Shown here: positions 34,894 through 44,090 of the stretch, piece by piece
Layout of the letters: every line of letters starts with the position of its first letter
How positions within the stretch are numbered: the first letter of the stretch is position 1
Assembly (NCBI RefSeq): GCF_027924185.1
Contig: NZ_BRVO01000002.1
Span: forward strand, 806,001-870,000
Direction: 5' to 3'
Origin: Neptunitalea lumnitzerae
GTDB taxonomy: Bacteria > Bacteroidota > Bacteroidia > Flavobacteriales > Flavobacteriaceae
Length of the DNA: 64,000 bases
Translations under genes and position numbers: made by a program
Notes under the pieces: generated by a model
What the model saw: the letters and a program-made list of their open reading frames with translations, nothing else
Told to the model about the DNA's origin: nothing
Database searches by the model: none

Positions 34894-34901
34894 TATATTT
34901 G
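34894..34901 (+). promoter_or_regulatory. Candidate -7 promoter element of the arg operon leader
   Basis: TATATTTG, an exact TAnnTTTG match, 12 nt before the ATG of the first arginine-rich leader ORF. No TTG is visible at the usual -33 distance. Transcription from here would include the entire 300-nt leader. Confidence 0.5.
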
Positions 34902-34913
34902 TATCATTGCTAT

Positions 34914-34985
34914 ATGAAAAATATAATTTTGAACATTAGACGCAATTACCCCACTCGCTCTCCTGAGCGCCGCCGCTGTATGTAA
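34914..34985 (+). CDS. Arginine-rich leader peptide 1 of the arg operon
   Basis: A 23-codon ORF starting MKNIILNIRRNYP and ending RSPERRRCM, stop TAA. Six of 23 residues are Arg, with a CGC-CGC-CGC run near the end and an AGA-CGC pair earlier. It starts just after a promoter-like TATATTTG and 236 nt before the first arg gene. CGCTC-TCCT-GAGCG (34956-34969) is a 5-bp hairpin inside the Arg-coding part, and TGTAAT/ATTACA (34981-34995) forms another across the stop codon. By analogy with attenuated operons it is probably a sensor of Arg-tRNA charging. Confidence 0.68.
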   Translation: MKNIILNIRRNYPTRSPERRRCM

Positions 34986-35033
34986 TATCATTACAGGCAA
35001 GTAACTAGTGTTTTATTTTTCATTTTATCAATA

Positions 35034-35129
35034 ATGTTTTTATCCTCATTTTTATCGGAGTTTGTTACCTCTCAGTTATTCACTGAGAAACGCTCTATTT
35101 TGTTTAGTCCCATCCGCCGCCGCCCGTAA
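35034..35129 (+). CDS. Possible arginine-rich leader peptide 2 of the arg operon
   Basis: A 31-codon ORF starting MFLSSFLSEF and ending SPIRRRP, stop TAA. Its end repeats the Ser-Pro-x-Arg-Arg-Arg pattern of leader ORF 1, again with three CGC codons in a row. The CGC run and stop codon fall in a hairpin, CGCCC-GTAA-GGGTG (35121-35134), with a GNRA-type tetraloop. A perfect hairpin TCTCAGT-TATTC-ACTGAGA (35070-35088) lies within the ORF. Whether it is translated is unknown. Confidence 0.5.
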   Translation: MFLSSFLSEFVTSQLFTEKRSILFSPIRRRP

Positions 35130-35148
35130 GGGTGCAGTTATTTTTATG

Positions 35149-35176
35149 GAACCTAGGTGAGTCCGGTTCTTTTCTT
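35149..35176 (+). terminator. Possible attenuator hairpin before the arg genes
   Basis: GAACC and GGTTC pair, extended by GG/CC after a two-base bulge, followed by TTTTCTT. It is weak compared with other terminators in the window. It lies 45 nt before the GNAT gene. Confidence 0.4.
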
Positions 35177-35221: not shown

Positions 35222-35866
35222 ATGAAGATTGTTGTAGCCAATAAATCTCATAGTAAGTATGCTACTATAATTTGCGATACTATGGCAGAGTCTGCCAAAG
35301 TGCGTGGCACAGGTATTGCCAAAAGAACTCCTGAGTATATTATTACAAAAATGGAGAATGGTAACGCTGTTATAGCATTAGAGGGCGACTCTTTTGCTGG
35401 CTTCTGCTACATTGAGGTTTGGAGTCACGAAAAATTTGTGGCTAACTCTGGTTTAATAGTTCATCCTGATTATAGAAATCTAGGACTCGCTAAAAGTATA
35501 AAACAAGAGATTTTTAACCTCTCCAGAAAGAAATTTCCAGATGCAAAAATTTTTGGTATTACCACAGGCTTAGCAGTTATGAAAATTAACTATGAGCTAG
35601 GGTATAAACCTGTAACATTTTCTGAATTAACAGATGATCCTACGTTTTGGAAAGGTTGCCAAACTTGTAAGAACTACGATATTCTGCAACGTACAGAACA
35701 AAAAATGTGCTTATGTACAGGTATGCTATATGATCCTGATGCTAAAAAGGATGAAAAAGTAAAGCCAAAAAATCATCAACATGATTACGATAAAAAAGTG
35801 TTGCAACGCTTAAAAAATATCAAACAACATTTATTCTTACCAAAAGAAAAAGAAGATAAAAAATGA
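35222..35866 (+). CDS. GNAT-family N-acetyltransferase, first gene of the arg operon
   Basis: 214 residues. The acetyl-CoA binding region is LIVHPDYRNLGLAKSIKQEI (about 78-97). After the GNAT domain comes a four-cysteine cluster, Cys146-x2-Cys149 and Cys163-x-Cys165 (CQTC...CLC), which could bind zinc, and a basic, lysine-rich tail. No ArgA or ArgJ is encoded in the operon, so this protein is the best candidate for the enzyme that acylates glutamate in the first arginine step; that is inference from gene position. It overlaps argG in ATGA. Confidence 0.8.
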   Translation: MKIVVANKSHSKYATIICDTMAESAKVRGTGIAKRTPEYIITKMENGNAVIALEGDSFAGFCYIEVWSHEKFVANSGLIVHPDYRNLGLAKSIKQEIFNLSRKKFPDAKIFGITTGLAVMKINYELGYKPVTFSELTDDPTFWKGCQTCKNYDILQRTEQKMCLCTGMLYDPDAKKDEKVKPKNHQHDYDKKVLQRLKNIKQHLFLPKEKEDKK

Positions 35867-37050
35867 AAAAATTAGTTTTAGCCTACAGTGGCGGTTTAGA
35901 CACCTCTTATTGTGCAAAATATTTAAGTAAAGATCAAGGTTTTGAAGTACATGCTGTAAGTGTAAACACTGGTGGTTTTACTGAAAACGAAATAAAAATA
36001 ATGGAAGAAAAAGCGTATGCACTAGGGGTAGCTTCTTACACCAGCATCAATGCGCTTAGTATCTTTTATAATAAAGTAGTAAAGTATTTAATTTATGGTA
36101 ATATTTTAAAAAACAACACCTATCCGCTATCGGTAAGTGCAGAACGTATAGTGCAAGCCATTGAAATTATAAACCACGCTAAAAAAATAGGTGCAGGTTA
36201 TATAGCACATGGTAGTACTGGAGCTGGTAATGACCAAGTTAGATTTGATATGATCTTTCAGATTTTAGCTCCTGAAATTGAAATTATTACTCCTATTAGA
36301 GATTTAAAATTGTCTAGAGAATCTGAAATAGCCTATTTACAAGAAAATGGAATTGAATACAGTTGGGAAAAAGCTAAATATTCCATTAACAAAGGCCTAT
36401 GGGGTACCAGCGTTGGAGGTAGTGAAACCTTAACATCTCATGGTTCTTTACCAGAAGAAGCATACCCAAGTCAGCTAGAAGAAACAACGCCTAAACAGGT
36501 TACCCTAACATTTACCAAAGGAGAATTAACCGCAATTGATGGAAAAGAAAATACACCTGAAATTAATATTCAGCTTCTCAATGAAATTGCCTCTAAATAT
36601 GCAATAGGTAGAGATATTCATGTGGGAGATACAATTATAGGTATTAAAGGACGTGTTGGTTTTGAAGCTGCAGCACCTTTAGTAATTATTAAAGCACACC
36701 ATTTATTAGAAAAACATGTACTTACCAAATGGCAACAGCATCATAAAGAGTACTTAGCTAATTGGTACGGTATGTTATTACACGAAGGACAATATTTAGA
36801 TGAGGTAATGAGAAACATGGAGGCCTTTTTATCAGATGCTCAGAAAAATGTAAGCGGCGATGTATTTGTAACCTTATTACCATACAGATTTCAGCTAGAT
36901 GGTATTAGCTCTATGCACGATTTAATGAATGCCTCATTTGGTAGTTATGGAGAAATGAATAAAGGTTGGACAGCAGATGATGCCAAAGGATTCATTAAGC
37001 TAACAGCAAATCAGAACAAAATCTATTATCACGTAAACGGAGAATCATGA
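35863..37050 (+). CDS. argG: Argininosuccinate synthase
   Basis: 395 residues. The N-terminal PP-loop is LAYSGGLDTSYCAKYL at 5-20; GAGYIAHGSTGAGNDQVRF (about 106-124) and EYSWEKAKYSINKGLWGTSVGG are the citrulline- and aspartate-binding blocks. It joins citrulline and aspartate using ATP. It overlaps the GNAT gene upstream and argC downstream by four bases each (ATGA), so these three genes are translationally coupled. Unusually for the pathway order, argG comes before the genes for the early steps. Confidence 0.94.
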   Translation: MKKLVLAYSGGLDTSYCAKYLSKDQGFEVHAVSVNTGGFTENEIKIMEEKAYALGVASYTSINALSIFYNKVVKYLIYGNILKNNTYPLSVSAERIVQAIEIINHAKKIGAGYIAHGSTGAGNDQVRFDMIFQILAPEIEIITPIRDLKLSRESEIAYLQENGIEYSWEKAKYSINKGLWGTSVGGSETLTSHGSLPEEAYPSQLEETTPKQVTLTFTKGELTAIDGKENTPEINIQLLNEIASKYAIGRDIHVGDTIIGIKGRVGFEAAAPLVIIKAHHLLEKHVLTKWQQHHKEYLANWYGMLLHEGQYLDEVMRNMEAFLSDAQKNVSGDVFVTLLPYRFQLDGISSMHDLMNASFGSYGEMNKGWTADDAKGFIKLTANQNKIYYHVNGES

Positions 37051-38024
37051 TTCAAGTAGGTATTGCAGGTAGTGCGGGATATACCGCAGGAGAATTGATT
37101 AGATTATTACTACAACACCCTAAGGCTGTTATTAACTTTGCCTATAGTACTTCTAATGCAGGTAACTTAATTAGTAGTGTGCACGATGATCTTATAGGTG
37201 AAACAGACCTTACTTTTACAAATGAAGTAAACCCAAATGTGAATGTTGTTTTTCTATGTTTGGGCCATGGAAATTCTAAAAAGTTTCTAGAGGAACATAC
37301 GTTTGCTCCTCATACAAAGGTAATTGACTTAAGCAATGATTTCCGTTTAGAGAAAGATGCTCTTTTTATGGGTAGAGATTTTGTATATGGCTTACCAGAG
37401 TTTCAAAAAGCTGCTATTAAAGAGGCTAGTAATATTGCAAACCCAGGATGCTTTGCTACCGCAATTCAATTAGCACTATTACCCTTGGCTAAAGAAAAAA
37501 AACTAACACATGAAGTTCACATCCATGCTGTAACGGGTAGTACAGGAGCCGGACAATCACTTTCTGCTACCAGTCATTTTACTTGGAGAAATAATAATTT
37601 CTCTTACTATAAACCATTTACGCATCAGCATCTAGGAGAAATATCAGAAACCTTAACATCGCTTCAGGGTACACTAGACACAGCTATTAACTTTATGCCC
37701 TATCGAGGCGATTTTACCAGAGGTATTTTTGTGACGGCTTATACCAACTTTGATGGTAGTTTGGAAGACGCTAAAGCTATTTACAAAAATTACTTTAAAA
37801 ATGCACCCTTTACTACCGTATCAGACACTGAGTTAAACCTGAAACAAGTAGTAAATACTAACAAATGTTTAGTGCATTTACACAAGCATGAAAATAAACT
37901 ATTAATAACTAGCTGTATAGATAACTTATTAAAGGGTGCTAGTGGGCAGGCTATTCATAATATGAATTTAATGTTTGGTTTAGAAGAAACTACTGGACTG
38001 CATATTAAAGCCTCTTATTTTTAA
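37047..38024 (+). CDS. argC: N-acetyl-gamma-glutamyl-phosphate reductase
   Basis: 325 residues. The NADP-binding start is QVGIAGSAGYTAGELIRLL; catalytic Cys lies in ANPGCFATAIQL; the His-containing block is VTGSTGAGQSLSATSHFTWR. It reduces the acyl-glutamyl phosphate to the semialdehyde. The protein is of the short (about 325-residue) type. Overlap with argG by ATGA; proC begins 25 nt after the stop. If the operon uses succinylated intermediates (see argF'), this enzyme must accept them as well. Confidence 0.93.
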   Translation: MIQVGIAGSAGYTAGELIRLLLQHPKAVINFAYSTSNAGNLISSVHDDLIGETDLTFTNEVNPNVNVVFLCLGHGNSKKFLEEHTFAPHTKVIDLSNDFRLEKDALFMGRDFVYGLPEFQKAAIKEASNIANPGCFATAIQLALLPLAKEKKLTHEVHIHAVTGSTGAGQSLSATSHFTWRNNNFSYYKPFTHQHLGEISETLTSLQGTLDTAINFMPYRGDFTRGIFVTAYTNFDGSLEDAKAIYKNYFKNAPFTTVSDTELNLKQVVNTNKCLVHLHKHENKLLITSCIDNLLKGASGQAIHNMNLMFGLEETTGLHIKASYF

Positions 38025-38049
38025 TTTTTTAAGCCTTAAATAACAAACT

Positions 38050-38844
38050 ATGAAAATAGCCATATTAGGAACCGGAAACCTAGGACTTTCCATAGCAAAA
38101 GGATTAATTGTAAATAATGCAATTACTACGCTATACCTTACAAAACGTACCATAGCATCTATTGAAAGTTATAGTGAATACGGTAATGTTTTTGTAACTA
38201 CAGATAATAGAACCGCAGTAGAAAAATCGGATATTATTATTTTGGCTATACAGCCAAGACACACTGAGTTGGTTTTAAATGAAATAAAAGATATGCTTAC
38301 TGAAAAGCATGTAGTTATTTCAACTGTAACAGGATTTAAAATACCACGTATTGAAGCCATTATAGGTAACGATCAGTTTATCATAAGAGCAATGCCAAAT
38401 ACAGCCATTTCTGTAGGAAAGTCTATGACGTGTATTTGCTCTAATGAAAAAGGAAAAAAACGAGTTAATGTTGCGTTGGCTATATTTAATCGTTTAGGAA
38501 ATTCCATTGAAATTCCGGAAGAACAGATGCAGGCGGCCACCGTTATTTGTGCTAGTGGTATTGCCTTTTGGATGCGTTTAATACGTGCTACTACGCAAGG
38601 AGCTATTCAATTAGGATTTGAATCTACCGAAGCATTAGAAATGTCTATGCACACCTGTTTAGGCGCAGCAAGTTTATTGGTAGAAAGTGGTAACCATCCT
38701 GAACAAGAAATAGACCGTGTGACCACTCCTGGTGGTTGTACTATTGAAGGCCTTAACGAAATGGAACATCAGGGATTGAGTTCCTCATTGATTAAAGGGT
38801 TAAAAGCTTCTTTTGATAAAATCAATCAAATTTCTAAATCGTAA
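38050..38844 (+). CDS. proC: Pyrroline-5-carboxylate reductase
   Basis: 264 residues. The Rossmann start is KIAILGTGNLGLSIAKGL; further blocks are IIRAMPNTAISVGKSMT and the C-terminal signature RVTTPGGCTIEGLNEME. It makes proline from pyrroline-5-carboxylate. Its place between argC and argD links proline and arginine synthesis, which share glutamate as source, but it is not needed for arginine itself. The next gene follows by 2 nt. Confidence 0.92.
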   Translation: MKIAILGTGNLGLSIAKGLIVNNAITTLYLTKRTIASIESYSEYGNVFVTTDNRTAVEKSDIIILAIQPRHTELVLNEIKDMLTEKHVVISTVTGFKIPRIEAIIGNDQFIIRAMPNTAISVGKSMTCICSNEKGKKRVNVALAIFNRLGNSIEIPEEQMQAATVICASGIAFWMRLIRATTQGAIQLGFESTEALEMSMHTCLGAASLLVESGNHPEQEIDRVTTPGGCTIEGLNEMEHQGLSSSLIKGLKASFDKINQISKS

Positions 38845-38846
38845 GT

Positions 38847-39980
38847 ATGAAACTATTTAATGTATATCCATTATATGATATCACCCCTGTACTAGGTAAA
38901 GATGTATATGTTTATGACGATAAAGGTGTTGAATATTTAGACCTATACGGCGGACACGCAGTAATTTCTATTGGACATGCACACCCTACCTATGTTACTA
39001 GTATTCAAGAACAAGTTGCCAAACTAGGGTTTTACTCTAATGCCATTCAGAATCCATTGCAAACCGAATTAGCCGAAAAACTTGGTGTATTATCGGGGTG
39101 TGACGCTTATAACCTATTCTTGTGTAACTCAGGAGCGGAAGCCAACGAAAATGCACTAAAAGTTGCTTCCTTTGTTACTGGTAAATCAAGAGTGATTTCT
39201 TTTGGTAATTCCTTTCACGGAAGAACCTCAGCAGCCGTTGCCGCTACTGATAACCCTAAAATTGTAGCTCCTATCAATGCGCAACAAAAAGTGACTTTTT
39301 TAGAACTTGGTGATATTGACGGTGTTAAAGCAGAACTTGAAAAAGGAGATGTATGTGCGGTAATCCTAGAGTTTATTCAAGGAGTGGGTGGTTTAGATGA
39401 AACCACTGCCGAATTTTATGAAACATTAGATGCTCTTTGTAAAACTAACAACACCTTTTTAATTGCTGATGAGGTACAGTCTGGCTATGGTAGAACAGGA
39501 AATTTCTTTGCCTTTCAGGCTTATAATGTAACGCCAGATATAATCTCTATGGCAAAAGGCATGGGTAATGGTTTCCCTATTGGAGGTATTTTAACACATC
39601 CTTCTATAGAGGCTTGGCATGGTATGCTGGGTACTACTTTTGGTGGTAATCACTTGGCATGTGCTGCAGGTATCGCTGTGTTAAATGTTATGAAGGATGA
39701 AAACCTAATGGAGCATGTAAAAGAGGTTGCTACCTATTTTAAAGAAAAAGCAGCCGAAATCCCTGATGTTAAAACGATTAAAGGGCGTGGATTAATGCTT
39801 GGTTTAGAATTTGATTTTGAAGTGGTTGAGCTTCGAAAAAAGCTTATCTATGACTATCACATTTTCACTGGAAGCGCCAACAACAAAAAGTTATTGCGAA
39901 TACTACCTCCGCTAACGGTTCAAAAAGAACACATTGACACTTTCTTAACTGCATTGAAATCGGTTTTACAGCCGGTATAA
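38847..39980 (+). CDS. argD: Acetylornithine aminotransferase (class III PLP aminotransferase)
   Basis: 377 residues. The PLP lysine is in DIISMAKGMGNGFPIGG; the upstream blocks are LFLCNSGAEANENALKVA and IADEVQSGYGRTGNFFA. It transfers an amino group from glutamate to the acyl-glutamate semialdehyde. The position in the arg operon supports the acylornithine role rather than ornithine or GABA transamination. One base separates its stop from the next start. Confidence 0.92.
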   Translation: MKLFNVYPLYDITPVLGKDVYVYDDKGVEYLDLYGGHAVISIGHAHPTYVTSIQEQVAKLGFYSNAIQNPLQTELAEKLGVLSGCDAYNLFLCNSGAEANENALKVASFVTGKSRVISFGNSFHGRTSAAVAATDNPKIVAPINAQQKVTFLELGDIDGVKAELEKGDVCAVILEFIQGVGGLDETTAEFYETLDALCKTNNTFLIADEVQSGYGRTGNFFAFQAYNVTPDIISMAKGMGNGFPIGGILTHPSIEAWHGMLGTTFGGNHLACAAGIAVLNVMKDENLMEHVKEVATYFKEKAAEIPDVKTIKGRGLMLGLEFDFEVVELRKKLIYDYHIFTGSANNKKLLRILPPLTVQKEHIDTFLTALKSVLQPV

Positions 39981-39981
39981 C

Positions 39982-40953
39982 ATGAAATTGACACCATACA
40001 AAATGAAAGAATATTTAGACATACCTGATATTGATAATCTCCCTGAACTTATAGAGGAAGCTATTGCACTAAAAAAAGCCCCGTATGCTTTTGAAGCATT
40101 AGGCAAACATAAAACTATCGGACTATTGTTTTTTAATTCTAGTCTACGTACTAGATTGAGTACACAAAAGGCTGCTCAGCAATTAGGTATGCATTGTATT
40201 GTTATGAATTTTGGTGCAGATGCTTGGGCTATAGAGTTTGAAGATGGTACCGTTATGGATGGTAGTACTTCTGAACACATCAAAGAAGCTGCTGCTGTAA
40301 TTTCTCAATATTGTAATATAGTTGCCATACGCGCCTTCCCTACTTTAACAGATAAAGAGAAGGACTTATCGGAACATGTACTGAATAATTTTAAAAAATA
40401 TGGTAGCATTCCTATTGTGAATATGGAAAGTGCTACGGCGCACCCTTTACAGGCTTTAGCAGATGCTATTACCATTACCGAACTTAAAAAAACGGCTAAA
40501 CCAAAAGTGGTTTTAAGTTGGGCTCCGCATCCTAAAGCACTACCCCATGCGGTGGCTAATTCGTTTACTAAAATAATGCAACGTATGGATGTTGACTTTG
40601 TGATTACCCATCCGGAAGGCTATGAACTTAATCCGGAGGTGACCAAGGATACGCCTATTGTGTACAATCAGGAAGAAGCTTTTAAAGATGCCGATTTCAT
40701 CTATGTGAAAAATTGGAGTAATTACAAGGACTATGGAAAAGTAGTGAATAACGACCCAAACTGGACAATCACTAATAAACAAATGGCTGTTACCAATAAC
40801 GCTAAGTTTATGCACTGCCTTCCGGTACGTAGAAATGTAATTGTAGCCGATGAAATATTAGATAGTGATGCTTCGGTGGTTATTGAACAAGCTAACAACC
40901 GTACCTATTCAGCACAGGTAGTTTTAAAAAGAATTTTAGAGCATTTAAAATAA
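39982..40953 (+). CDS. N-acylornithine carbamoyltransferase (acetyl- or succinyl-ornithine type)
   Basis: 323 residues. The carbamoyl phosphate motif is FFNSSLRTRLST (50-61) in place of the STRTR of ordinary ArgF, and MHCLPVRRN and WAPHPKALPHAVANS are typical of the Xanthomonas and Bacteroides N-acylornithine enzymes. The specificity site reads MDGSTSEH (92-99): Xanthomonas acetylornithine enzyme has Glu and Bacteroides succinylornithine enzyme Pro where this one has Ser97. The acyl group used is therefore open. It carbamoylates the N-acyl-ornithine, so deacylation by the ArgE-like enzyme comes afterwards. An alternative start is Met8. Confidence 0.9.
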   Translation: MKLTPYKMKEYLDIPDIDNLPELIEEAIALKKAPYAFEALGKHKTIGLLFFNSSLRTRLSTQKAAQQLGMHCIVMNFGADAWAIEFEDGTVMDGSTSEHIKEAAAVISQYCNIVAIRAFPTLTDKEKDLSEHVLNNFKKYGSIPIVNMESATAHPLQALADAITITELKKTAKPKVVLSWAPHPKALPHAVANSFTKIMQRMDVDFVITHPEGYELNPEVTKDTPIVYNQEEAFKDADFIYVKNWSNYKDYGKVVNNDPNWTITNKQMAVTNNAKFMHCLPVRRNVIVADEILDSDASVVIEQANNRTYSAQVVLKRILEHLK

Positions 40954-40957
40954 GCTT

Positions 40958-41734
40958 ATGGAACTAAAAGTCATTAAAATAGGTGGAAACGTTATAGAAA
41001 ATGAAACGGCTCTGGAAGCCTTCATTACCGATTTTGCAGCAGTTAAAGGACCTAAAATTTTGGTGCATGGTGGTGGTAAGTTAGCCACACAATTAGCTAA
41101 AAAAATGGGAATTGAAACTACTATGGTAGAAGGTCGCCGTATTACTGATGCTGAAACTCTAAAAGTAATCACCATGGTATATGGTGGTTTTGCTAATAAA
41201 AATATTGTTGCCAAATTACAAGGAAATGGCTGTAACGCTATTGGTTTGTCTGGTGCAGATGGTAATGTCATACAGGCTATTAAACGCCCAGTTAAAACTA
41301 TTGATTACGGTTATGTGGGCGATGTTACCGGTATAAGCGAACAAACCATTGATGCCTTATTAAAAAATGGATTAACGCCAGTTTTCTGTGCGATCACCCA
41401 TGATGGTAACGGACAGCTTTTTAATACAAATGCAGATACCATAGCCGCTACCATTGCAGTAGGTATGAGCAATTTATACGATACTGCTCTGTACTATTGT
41501 TTTGAGAAAAATGGGGTAATGAGAGATATTAATGATGATGATTCTGTAATTGAACATATAAACACTCAAAATTACCCGACGCTGTTAGAAGAAAAAGTAG
41601 TAAGTGACGGAATGATTCCTAAACTACACAATGCCTTTGAAGCCTTAAAACAAAATGTAAAAAAGGTTTGCATTGGTAACACCAAAATGATTGTAGAAAA
41701 CAGCCAACAAAAACACACCACAATTACGTTATGA
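40958..41734 (+). CDS. argB: Acetylglutamate kinase
   Basis: 258 residues of the amino acid kinase fold: KVIKIGGNVIE at the start, KILVHGGGKLATQLAKKMG for substrate binding, and TPVFCAITHDGNGQLFNTNADTIAATIA for ATP and Mg. It lacks the extra N-terminal helix of arginine-inhibited kinases, so feedback inhibition by arginine is less likely. Four bases after the carbamoyltransferase; overlaps the deacetylase gene by ATGA. Confidence 0.93.
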   Translation: MELKVIKIGGNVIENETALEAFITDFAAVKGPKILVHGGGKLATQLAKKMGIETTMVEGRRITDAETLKVITMVYGGFANKNIVAKLQGNGCNAIGLSGADGNVIQAIKRPVKTIDYGYVGDVTGISEQTIDALLKNGLTPVFCAITHDGNGQLFNTNADTIAATIAVGMSNLYDTALYYCFEKNGVMRDINDDDSVIEHINTQNYPTLLEEKVVSDGMIPKLHNAFEALKQNVKKVCIGNTKMIVENSQQKHTTITL

Positions 41735-42798
41735 TAACTCAGGAACATTTAACCGAAAAAGCCACCGAGCTGCTGAGGCAACTCATAGAAACACCTTCAT
41801 TTTCATCGGAAGAAGAAGGTACTGCTGCCCTTATTGAAAACTGGCTTACCCAATTCGGTATTCCTTTTCAACGCAAGCAACATAATATTTATGCGTTTAA
41901 TAAACATTATGAAGATGGCAAACCATTATTATTGTTAAACTCACACCATGATACCGTAAAGCCAAATTCAGGTTATACCAAAGATCCGTTTAAAGCTATT
42001 GAAGAAGATGGTAAATTATACGGACTAGGAAGTAACGATGCAGGAGGATGCTTGGTTAGCTTACTAGCCTCCTTTATACATTTCTACGAAAAAGAAAATT
42101 TATCGCACAACATTGTACTAGTAGCATCAGCCGAAGAAGAAAGCTCAGGTGCTAACGGGTTAAACAGCATGTTGACTCATTTACCTAAAATTGATGTAGC
42201 CATTGTAGGAGAACCTACATTAATGAATTTGGCCATAGCAGAAAAAGGATTGGTGGTATTTGATGCCGTGGTAAAAGGAACCCCTAGCCATGCTGCACAT
42301 CCTAACAATGACAATGCTATCTATAATTCTATAGAGGTCTTAAAATGGTTTGAGCAAAAGAAGTTTGAAAAAGTATCTGAGGTATTAGGAGAAGTAAAAC
42401 TCACCGTTACACAAATAAACGCTGGGAAACAGCACAATGTAGTTCCGGCAGAAGTACAATTGGTAATAGATGTTAGAGTTAACGATAAATATACCAACGC
42501 AGAGATAGCAGAAATCTTAGCTACTGAAGCACCATGTGAGGTAAAAGCAAGATCACTAAGACTAAATTCGTCTTCTATAGATAAAAATCATGATTTGGTA
42601 AAAGCTGGTATAGGTTTAGGCAGAGCAACCTATGGCTCTCCTACCCTTTCAGATCAATCGGTATTATCATGCCAATCCTTAAAATTAGGTCCTGGAGATT
42701 CTACCCGATCGCACTCAGCCGATGAATTTATTTATCTTCAAGAAATTGAAGAGGGAATTGATCTTTACATTAAAATTTTAAGCACCTTTTTACAGTAA
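41731..42798 (+). CDS. M20-family N-acyl-citrulline/ornithine deacylase (ArgE-like)
   Basis: 355 residues. Metal and catalytic residues of M20: His72-x-Asp74 in NSHHDTVKP, Asp103 in GSNDAGG, and the Glu pair in SAEEESSG (about 135-136). A dimerisation domain lies between about 165 and 270 (GTPSHAAHP). In a pathway with an N-acylornithine carbamoyltransferase the substrate would be N-acetyl- or N-succinyl-citrulline rather than acetylornithine. It overlaps argB by four bases and argH follows by 5 nt. Confidence 0.88.
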   Translation: MITQEHLTEKATELLRQLIETPSFSSEEEGTAALIENWLTQFGIPFQRKQHNIYAFNKHYEDGKPLLLLNSHHDTVKPNSGYTKDPFKAIEEDGKLYGLGSNDAGGCLVSLLASFIHFYEKENLSHNIVLVASAEEESSGANGLNSMLTHLPKIDVAIVGEPTLMNLAIAEKGLVVFDAVVKGTPSHAAHPNNDNAIYNSIEVLKWFEQKKFEKVSEVLGEVKLTVTQINAGKQHNVVPAEVQLVIDVRVNDKYTNAEIAEILATEAPCEVKARSLRLNSSSIDKNHDLVKAGIGLGRATYGSPTLSDQSVLSCQSLKLGPGDSTRSHSADEFIYLQEIEEGIDLYIKILSTFLQ

Positions 42799-42803
42799 TT
42801 ATT

Positions 42804-44090
42804 ATGAAACTTTGGGACAAAGGTTTTAGTACCGATAAAAAAATAGATCATTTTACCGTTGGTAATGACAGACAATTAGATTTGTTATTAGCCAAATACG
42901 ACGTGCAAGCATCTAAAGCGCATGCTAAGATGTTGGGGAATATTGGCATCTTAACAACCAAGGAAACACTGGATGTTATCTTGGCCTTAGACGAAATAGC
43001 TACGACAATTGACAATGGAACATTTACCATTGAAGATAGCTTTGAAGACATGCATTCTAAAATTGAGTTTCTATTAGTTGAAAAACTAGGAGATACCGGA
43101 AAAAAAATACATACGGCACGCTCCAGAAACGATCAGGTTTTAGTAGCAGTTCACTTGTATCTTAAAGAAGAAATAAAGGAGATTAAACAACAAGTAAAAG
43201 AGCTGTTTGATTTGCTTATCAATCATGCCGAAACCTATAAAGATATTCTTATACCTGGATATACCCATTTACAAGTAGCAATGCCTTCTTCATTTGGTTT
43301 ATGGTTTTCTGCCTACGCCGAAAGTTTGATAGACGATGTGTATTTTTTAAATGCAGCTTACAAAATAGTAGACCAAAACCCTTTGGGTAGTGCTGCCGGT
43401 TATGGTAGTTCTTTTGATATCAACAGAACGTTTACCACGCAAGAACTAGATTTTGCTACTATGAAATACAATGTGGTAGCAGCTCAAATGAGCAGAGGTA
43501 AGTCTGAAAAAAGTACTGCCTTTGCCATTAGTAGTATAGCTGCTACACTTGCCAAAATGAGTATGGATATCTGCCTATATATGAGTCAGAATTTTAATTT
43601 TATTGGTTTTCCTGATGAGCTTACTACCGGAAGTAGTATTATGCCCCACAAGAAAAACCCAGATGTATTTGAACTTATTAGAGGCAAGTGTAATGTGCTA
43701 CAAGGTTTACCTCAGCAACTGGCACTATTAACTACTAATTTACCAAGTGGTTATCATAGAGATTTACAGCTTTCGAAAGAGCTTATAGTACCCGCGATAC
43801 AAGAGTTAAAATCATGTATTGAAATGGCTACCTTTACATTAAAAGATATAAAAGTAAATACCCATATTTTAGAAGACCCTAAGTATGATTATTTGTTTAG
43901 CGTAGACACTTTAAACAAGCTAGTACAAGACGGCATGCCGTTTAGAGATGCCTATAAAAAAATAGGTATGGATATTCAAGAAGGTGCTTTTACACCCAAC
44001 AAGAATGTTCATCACACCCACGAAGGTAGTATAGGAAATCTATGTTTAGAAGCTATTCAAAACAAAATGGAATCCGTCTTAAAATTATGA
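42804..44090 (+). CDS. argH: Argininosuccinate lyase
   Basis: 428 residues. The fumarase-superfamily signature is GSSIMPHKKNPDVFE; other conserved blocks are TARSRNDQVLVAVHLYL and PGYTHLQVAMPSSFGLW. It releases fumarate and arginine, completing the pathway. It is the last gene of the operon, followed by a strong terminator. The protein is slightly shorter than the 457-residue E. coli enzyme, as is usual in Bacteroidota. Confidence 0.94.
   Translation: MKLWDKGFSTDKKIDHFTVGNDRQLDLLLAKYDVQASKAHAKMLGNIGILTTKETLDVILALDEIATTIDNGTFTIEDSFEDMHSKIEFLLVEKLGDTGKKIHTARSRNDQVLVAVHLYLKEEIKEIKQQVKELFDLLINHAETYKDILIPGYTHLQVAMPSSFGLWFSAYAESLIDDVYFLNAAYKIVDQNPLGSAAGYGSSFDINRTFTTQELDFATMKYNVVAAQMSRGKSEKSTAFAISSIAATLAKMSMDICLYMSQNFNFIGFPDELTTGSSIMPHKKNPDVFELIRGKCNVLQGLPQQLALLTTNLPSGYHRDLQLSKELIVPAIQELKSCIEMATFTLKDIKVNTHILEDPKYDYLFSVDTLNKLVQDGMPFRDAYKKIGMDIQEGAFTPNKNVHHTHEGSIGNLCLEAIQNKMESVLKL

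Follow-up and report, generated by a model that had tools for sequence, protein, structure and literature searches.

Amino acid operons are controlled by ribosome-mediated attenuation in leaders of the trpL, hisL and thrL type, each of which carries a short promoter-proximal open reading frame (ORF) rich in codons for the end product. The same arrangement, together with hairpins predicted to depend upon a ribosome at those codons, is encountered in the DNA described here: a stretch of 64,000 nucleotides (nt) from Neptunitalea lumnitzerae (contig NZ_BRVO01000002.1, positions 806,001 to 870,000; hereafter the 'window'), which holds a complete arginine operon at 35222-44090 of the forward strand, preceded by a leader of approximately 320 nt. 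Two features set this leader apart from the classical ones: the presence of two serial ORFs for the same amino acid and, downstream of the second (ORF2), a conserved bulged hairpin (H2), with no competing terminator/antiterminator pair found there. The leader is probably an arginine-specific RNA with two ribosome sensors in series, acting in place of a missing ArgR repressor.

Leaders with two short ORFs, each accompanied by its own structures, are represented by Salmonella mgtCBR, where tandem attenuators (mgtM and mgtP) respond independently to different signals, ATP and proline, in what its authors regarded as a singular example (PMC3641672). In the present leader, by contrast, both ORFs are rich in arginine (Arg) codons and the first (ORF1) appears to gate the second. 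Two leader peptides also precede the ermA and ermB macrolide resistance genes, for which one proposed model holds that a stall in leader 1 activates leader 2 and a stall in leader 2 activates the gene (PMC8274638); stalling there is drug-dependent and peptide-based, whereas the response proposed here is to amino acid starvation. Within the same family, leader-peptide attenuation has been suggested upstream of amino acid operons in a survey of structured 5' regions of Flavobacterium psychrophilum, the keyword-matched passages of which describe no arginine leader, tandem ORFs or hairpin motif of the kind reported below (PMC9723704). A literature search conducted mostly without subscription papers found neither tandem leaders for one amino acid nor the present arginine leader.

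Two arginine-rich reading frames

The initial annotation, made from the sequence of the window, had described two Arg-rich ORFs that each contain CGC-CGC-CGC, a sequence element 12 nt upstream of the first, and an arginine operon behind them. Re-reading of the sequence, together with the gene families encoded downstream, confirms all three.

34894-34901, forward strand: Bacteroidota -7 promoter element, TATATTTG (consensus TAnnTTTG), 12 nt upstream of the ORF1 ATG
34914-34985, forward strand: ORF1, leader peptide 1, MKNIILNIRRNYPTRSPERRRCM followed by a stop codon, 23 amino acids, with Arg at codons 9, 10, 15 and 19-21
35034-35129, forward strand: ORF2, leader peptide 2, MFLSSFLSEFVTSQLFTEKRSILFSPIRRRP followed by a stop codon, 31 amino acids, with the C-terminus RRRP
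35115-35123, forward strand: terminal Arg codons of ORF2, CGC CGC CGC
35222-44090, forward strand: the controlled operon, comprising GNAT, argG, argC, proC, an argD-type gene, an N-acetylornithine carbamoyltransferase-type gene, argB, an argE/DapE-type gene and argH (ORF list and family assignment)

ORF1 and ORF2 are the sole ORFs of 15-45 amino acids on either strand of the window that have RRR within their last six residues, and 3000 dinucleotide shuffles of positions 34894-35176 yielded one such ORF in eight cases and two in none. The occurrence of two Arg-rich ORFs in this leader is not due to chance. Their common ending, SPxRRR, is indeed present in both; the closest relatives lack it, however (the genome is close to that of Neptunitalea chrysea, with a GNAT protein 90% identical), and a duplicated motif was discarded as an explanation since only the N. 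lumnitzerae genome has it in both ORFs. The match is coincidental.

Relatives were sampled as GNAT homologues from public genomes (80 loci and 30 loci), to which 100 further upstream regions were added; 198 leaders were parsed automatically, with ORF2 start positions picked by length. Upstream of GNAT-argG both ORFs and their Arg codons are kept in frame in many genera. An ORF2 ending in RRP or a close variant, approximately 90 nt upstream of GNAT, occurs almost throughout the Flavobacteriaceae (RRP in 76 of 91 non-redundant leaders), and is accompanied in 79 of the 198 parsed leaders, a count that excludes one false call, by an ORF1 of about 17-24 codons. Genera with both ORFs include Neptunitalea, Winogradskyella, Olleya, Lacinutrix, Psychroserpens, Gelidibacter, Mangrovimonas, Gillisia, Salinimicrobium, Zunongwangia and Christiangramia, while those with a single ORF include Arenibacter, Maribacter, Muricauda/Flagellimonas, Zobellia, Cellulophaga, Pricia, Sinomicrobium and Leeuwenhoekiella. 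When placed upon the GNAT tree, these labels require 7 changes where 35 would be expected, and no fewer than two of the 7 (L088 and L089) are misses of the ORF caller recognised by eye; the tandem is therefore judged to be old, with few gains or losses in its history.

Both frames carry a coding signal of the type that the initial annotation had anticipated. Among codons differing by a single substitution between nearest relatives, 36% of the changes in ORF1 are synonymous against 23% expected (p = 1.5e-4), as are 37% of those in ORF2 of two-ORF leaders (p = 1e-8) and 51% of those in ORF2 of single-ORF leaders (p = 8e-20), with no such excess in the other frames of either region. This pattern indicates that ORF1 and ORF2 are both translated, and would give the leader the anatomy of an attenuator: a translated, short, promoter-proximal ORF and a run of Arg codons before an arginine operon. 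Codon choice points in the same direction: CGC or CGT makes up 316 of 322 Arg codons within the last eight codons of ORF2 in the relatives, and 148 of 196 Arg codons in ORF1, against only 49 of 137 in the genes of the window, where AGA is commonest. Such a bias is what the sensing of one tRNA-Arg class would need.

The promoter element belongs to ORF1. Of 39 non-redundant two-ORF leaders, 34 carry a TAnnTTT[G/A] sequence no more than 30 nt ahead of ORF1 (mode -12), and only 8 carry one ahead of ORF2; in single-ORF leaders it stands before ORF2 in 33 of 52, approximately 15 nt away. The start codon of ORF2 differs as well, being TTG or GTG in 31 of 38 two-ORF leaders and ATG in 45 of 52 single-ORF leaders.

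End-product control of arginine synthesis is elsewhere the task of ArgR. A search for ArgR (PF02863) in the N. lumnitzerae genome and 59 relatives found it absent from 60 of 60, with control genomes scoring as expected; among 148 sampled Bacteroidota it is present in 54, every one of them outside the Flavobacteriales. The leader thus stands where a repressor would otherwise act, and may explain how an entire bacterial family lacking ArgR can control arginine synthesis.

A long-range helix between ORF1 and ORF2

The largest structure in the leader, absent from the hairpins listed in the initial annotation, is a helix (P1) in which the front of ORF1 pairs with a U-rich stretch before ORF2.

34914-34939, forward strand: 5' arm of P1, running from the beginning of ORF1 to its first Arg codon (folding and swap test)
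35005-35023, forward strand: 3' arm of P1, CUAGUGUUUUAUUUUUCAU, directly upstream of the ORF2 start (folding and swap test)
34956-34969, forward strand: hairpin CGCTC/GAGCG, before the terminal Arg run of ORF1 (folding; swap scan of ORF1 +30 with stop -30, t = -4.7)

The segment that contains P1 (34914-35033) folds with z = -3.1. In 34 non-redundant two-ORF leaders, the arms pair with their own partners at a mean of -14.8 kcal/mol and with swapped partners at -10.1 kcal/mol; none of 10,000 permutations reached the observed sum, although the leaders are related by descent and permutation counts are not independent trials. P1 is also the strongest signal in an unbiased scan of all pairs of windows along the leader (t = -8.0); the hairpin that precedes the Arg run of ORF1 comes next.

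In the modelled RNA (equilibrium folding of the RNA alone at 37 C), the start region of ORF2 is 34% unpaired when the RNA is free, and 61-65% unpaired once a ribosome occupies the early Arg codons of ORF1 or is queued behind its terminal run. The conserved helix is thus predicted to sequester the ORF2 start region, and ribosomes on the front of ORF1 to release it. In Flavobacterium johnsoniae, mRNA structure tunes translation initiation, which takes place without Shine-Dalgarno sequences (PMC6847099). P1 would represent a case of long-range control over where translation begins, in bacteria that dispense with such sequences.

The hairpins around the end of ORF2

A fold-energy scan of 91 non-redundant leaders, anchored on the ORF2 stop codon, picked out exactly three zones in which a hairpin is conserved: H0 between -60 and -35, H1 over the stop codon itself and H2 between +18 and +44.

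35070-35088, forward strand: H0, hairpin TCTCAGT/ACTGAGA within ORF2, at a constant position ahead of its Arg codons (own z = -3.2)
35121-35134, forward strand: H1, stop-codon hairpin CGCCC-GUAA-GGGUG, the 5' arm of which holds the last Arg codon
35135-35147, forward strand: single-stranded spacer between H1 and H2, of near-constant length
35148-35170, forward strand: H2, bulged hairpin GGAACC-UA-GG-UGAGU-CC-GGUUCU, in which GG-UGNGU-CC is invariant

All of the hairpins that had been listed for the leader exist in the sequence, and the expected covariation among relatives was found. CGCTC/GAGCG, H0, H1 and H2 fold better than shuffled sequences across relatives or covary; TGTAAT/ATTACA, located just 3' of ORF1, shows only a weak signal of conserved folding. 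H0 is supported in single-ORF leaders by the swap test (t = -3.9). In these leaders (L002, L010, L025 and others) the swap scan also suggests a further long-range helix around H0, joining ORF2 -80 to -60 with -30 to -10 from the stop codon (t = -4.0); it would bring early ORF2 next to the Arg codons, in a layout resembling that of P1.

In H1, a compensatory change from C-G to A-U is found in 9 of 80 scored sequences, where CCC/GGG becomes CAC/GUG and the last residue of ORF2 changes from Pro to Thr. Pairing is maintained at the cost of the residue, and what is kept is therefore the hairpin and not the amino acid. H2 occurs as two sequence types (GGAACY-UA-GG-UGNGU-CC-GGUUCC and GGAAAU-A-GG-UGAGU-CC-AUUUCC), and each of its six stem pairs has changed on both sides in a compensatory manner among 83 distinct sequences (99% paired), across which the inner GG/CC and UGNGU are invariant. 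Its strong covariation and invariant loop make H2 a new and well-bounded RNA motif. Two further leaders, L170 and L212, have GA/UC where the inner GG/CC would stand (AGAUGNGUUC); the apical part, elsewhere invariant, has here undergone a compensatory change. A role for H2 as a Shine-Dalgarno-like AGGUGA pairing with 16S rRNA was considered and set aside: the middle base of the loop varies (A, U or C), and L170 and L212 keep the inner helix as GA/UC.

The distance between the end of H1 and the inner GG of H2 is 20-25 nt in 86 of 86 measured leaders. The stop codon of Salinimicrobium and Gillisia leaders is displaced downstream by approximately 12 nt, with H1, the Arg codons and the spacing from H1 to H2 left as they are; the point from which H2 reads its distance accordingly appears to be H1 and the Arg codons rather than the stop codon. 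In four leaders (L007, L093, L098 and L197) an inverted repeat of the type TTCCTG...CAGGAATCT is inserted between H2 and GNAT, lengthening that interval by approximately 35-50 nt, and the leader is retained. In a clade whose ORF1 is of the type MKNLKNKIRCTIPGLPVRSRRRF (L204, L211 and L216), some members have a hairpin at the place of H2 in which the invariant loop is lost, and the second module seems to be decaying.

A combined H1/H2 model matches once per genome, solely upstream of GNAT-argG, with no copies before other operons, which marks the leader element as arginine-specific. Matches to the H2 motif elsewhere in the N. lumnitzerae genome fall only inside coding regions, and those to the H1/H2 model outside the family were rejected as chance, located in coding DNA or ordinary terminators. 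An Rfam search of the window for known cis-regulatory RNAs, the T-box included, gave no match at gathering thresholds; a permissive search returned one chance-level match (E = 2.8).

Two separable modules

The leader may be divided into a first module, consisting of ORF1 and P1, and a second, consisting of ORF2, H1, the spacer and H2. In single-ORF genera the second module lies directly behind the promoter and, to judge from this arrangement, works alone; the window has both in series. The reverse is seen in Flavobacterium, where an ORF1 (ending SPEVRML) is retained directly after the promoter as the only Arg-rich ORF of the leader. ORF2 has there become, in 8 of 8 leaders, a frame of 61-70 codons with 0-2 Arg, the stop codon of which falls between 4 nt ahead of the GNAT start and 1 nt beyond it, and no match to the H1/H2 model was found in the sampled Flavobacterium genomes. 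Since H1 and H2 are gone and an Arg-poor ORF2 abuts GNAT, ORF1 probably works alone in this genus, controlling translation of ORF2 and, by coupling, that of GNAT. One Flavobacterium genome (G462) has two GNAT copies, L146 and L155, of which the second is 54% identical to the window protein and lacks an Arg-rich leader. This natural, family-wide series of leaders (first module only, second module only, both) offers a means of learning what is gained by sensing one signal twice, for instance a steeper response or less leak.

A model for serial arginine sensing

The two ORFs with their Arg codons, P1, H0, H1, H2, the position of the promoter and the absence of ArgR are established at the level of sequence comparison, and the earlier proposal of a tandem, two-sensor arginine leader appears sound, as judged by the conservation of both ORFs, their synonymous excess, the covarying hairpins and a promoter that precedes ORF1 and not ORF2. 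In the mechanism that we envisage, transcription would begin at the promoter immediately upstream of ORF1. When the Arg-tRNA for CGC and CGT is scarce, ribosomes would slow within ORF1, and slow or queued ribosomes would cover its front, such that P1 would stay open and the ORF2 start region remain accessible. With plentiful arginine ORF1 would be finished fast, P1 would close and ORF2 would not be started. ORF2 would then repeat the test: a ribosome waiting at its last Arg codons would occupy and block H1, and the arginine genes would stay on, whereas with no ribosome at the end of ORF2, H1 would form beside a constitutive H2 and expression would be shut off before the first gene. That ribosome stalling is the signal is very probable; that ORF1 gates ORF2 through P1 is on balance the better reading of the data.

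With regard to the output, a modelled ribosome on the last Arg codon blocks H1, while H2 still forms. The GNAT start is 65% unpaired in the model with or without that ribosome, and H2 lies anywhere from 42 to 132 nt away from the GNAT ATG; it is therefore unlikely that GNAT initiation is controlled directly. In this respect the leader differs from those of the erm genes, which are controlled at their own start codons: in the model, a stall in the second leader frees no start codon of the main gene. No covarying antiterminator was found in the scan of all window pairs, and the swap test gave no pairing signal between late ORF2 and either H2 or the H2-GNAT interval; a weak pairing of early ORF2 with that interval (p = 0.0015, -8.2 versus -7.5) was not used. 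A terminator scan of the window flagged H1 with the U-rich spacer, the leader's only terminator-like site and a weak one. It seems somewhat more plausible that the second module acts on transcript elongation, termination or stability than on the GNAT start codon, and possible routes, which are guesses, are Rho-dependent termination, RNase cleavage in the inter-hairpin spacer, or a protein bound to the H2 loop.

Several observations weigh against this model. The weak combination of H1 and the U-rich spacer is the only candidate intrinsic terminator after ORF2, and the U content of the spacer barely exceeds that of neighbouring intergenic DNA; a few leaders (L013, L204, L211 and L216) have a degraded H1 and H2. 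When the terminal Arg run of ORF1 holds a single ribosome, P1 stays closed in the model (0.355 versus 0.339), such that the early Arg codons (8-10) or the queuing of ribosomes are predicted to matter; Arg is found at codons 8-10 in 60 of 78 ORF1s, and at none of these in the other 18. Finally, the P1 swap test shows no significant advantage in eight Flavobacterium leaders (-10.6 versus -10.2), which are near relatives, one of them with a probably misplaced ORF2 start; in that genus P1 is accordingly proposed from anatomy.

Taken as a whole, the leader is tentatively read, at slightly less than an even chance, as an AND-type serial arginine sensor, in which ORF1 gates ORF2 by means of an A/U-rich long-range helix, ORF2 re-reads arginine, and H1, the spacer and H2, bound by a putative factor, provide the on/off step. 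With the same reserve, H1-spacer-H2 with its invariant UGNGU loop would be a previously undescribed RNA element, and the serial sensor would have arisen where ArgR is absent, with its two halves used singly in different genera.

Alternative explanations

The principal alternative, a possible one though clearly less probable, is that the leader contains two independent and additive arginine attenuators, each acting on the transcript, with P1 serving as the terminator or antiterminator of ORF1 and exerting no gate upon ORF2. The finding of the modules separately in different genera, the U-rich, terminator-like 3' arm of P1 and the additive action of the tandem mgtCBR attenuators (PMC3641672) are all in keeping with it. 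Nonetheless, P1 is nearly all A-U and closes a loop of about 60-80 nt, and would make a poor intrinsic terminator; its 3' arm immediately precedes the ORF2 start; and the abutment of ORF2 with GNAT in Flavobacterium points to translational coupling.

It is unlikely that ORF2 with H1 and H2 is the only working attenuator and ORF1 a relic or accessory, neither sensed nor needed. Single-ORF genera do without ORF1, and it varies more than ORF2; but its synonymous excess, its conserved helix, its deep and clustered distribution on the tree and its position as the sole Arg-rich ORF of Flavobacterium leaders all speak against this reading.

The initial annotation had implied a textbook intrinsic terminator after ORF2, formed by GAACC/GGTTC (H2) and the TTTTCTT that follows it in the window. 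This reading did not survive comparison: 86 relatives have a mean of 3.3 T in the 12 nt after H2, and only 5% have at least 6. Because this U-tract is missing in relatives, H2 is not a usual terminator; its loop is moreover conserved beyond the needs of any terminator, and the terminator scan picks H1, not H2. Such a role is now improbable. A similarly small likelihood attaches to the sensing of free arginine by the nascent peptide, in the manner of TnaC and tryptophan, with the RRP peptide stalling at the stop codon. The frequency of the RRP ending speaks for this, but Pro gives way to Thr in step with H1 pairing, the stop codon is displaced in Salinimicrobium and Gillisia with H1-H2 spacing unchanged, the residues upstream of the Arg run are not conserved, and a peptide sensor has no need of biased Arg codons. 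Least probable of all is that H2, an inverted repeat present in single copy before the arginine operon of each genome, is a DNA operator for a repressor, given its frequent G-U pairs at two stem positions (34 U-G and 17 G-U cells), the asymmetric bulge that breaks its dyad, and the absence of ArgR.

An arginine leader in another family

In L150, a locus from another Bacteroidota family (genome G340), a separate Arg leader, MQFFFNDRITLATLRRRRQRMG followed by a stop codon, lies approximately 165-60 nt 5' of GNAT, with GCCGG-gcataa-CCGGC and a T-rich stretch behind it. Outside the Flavobacteriaceae, too, GNAT-argG may be preceded by an arginine attenuator that has a terminator-like hairpin.
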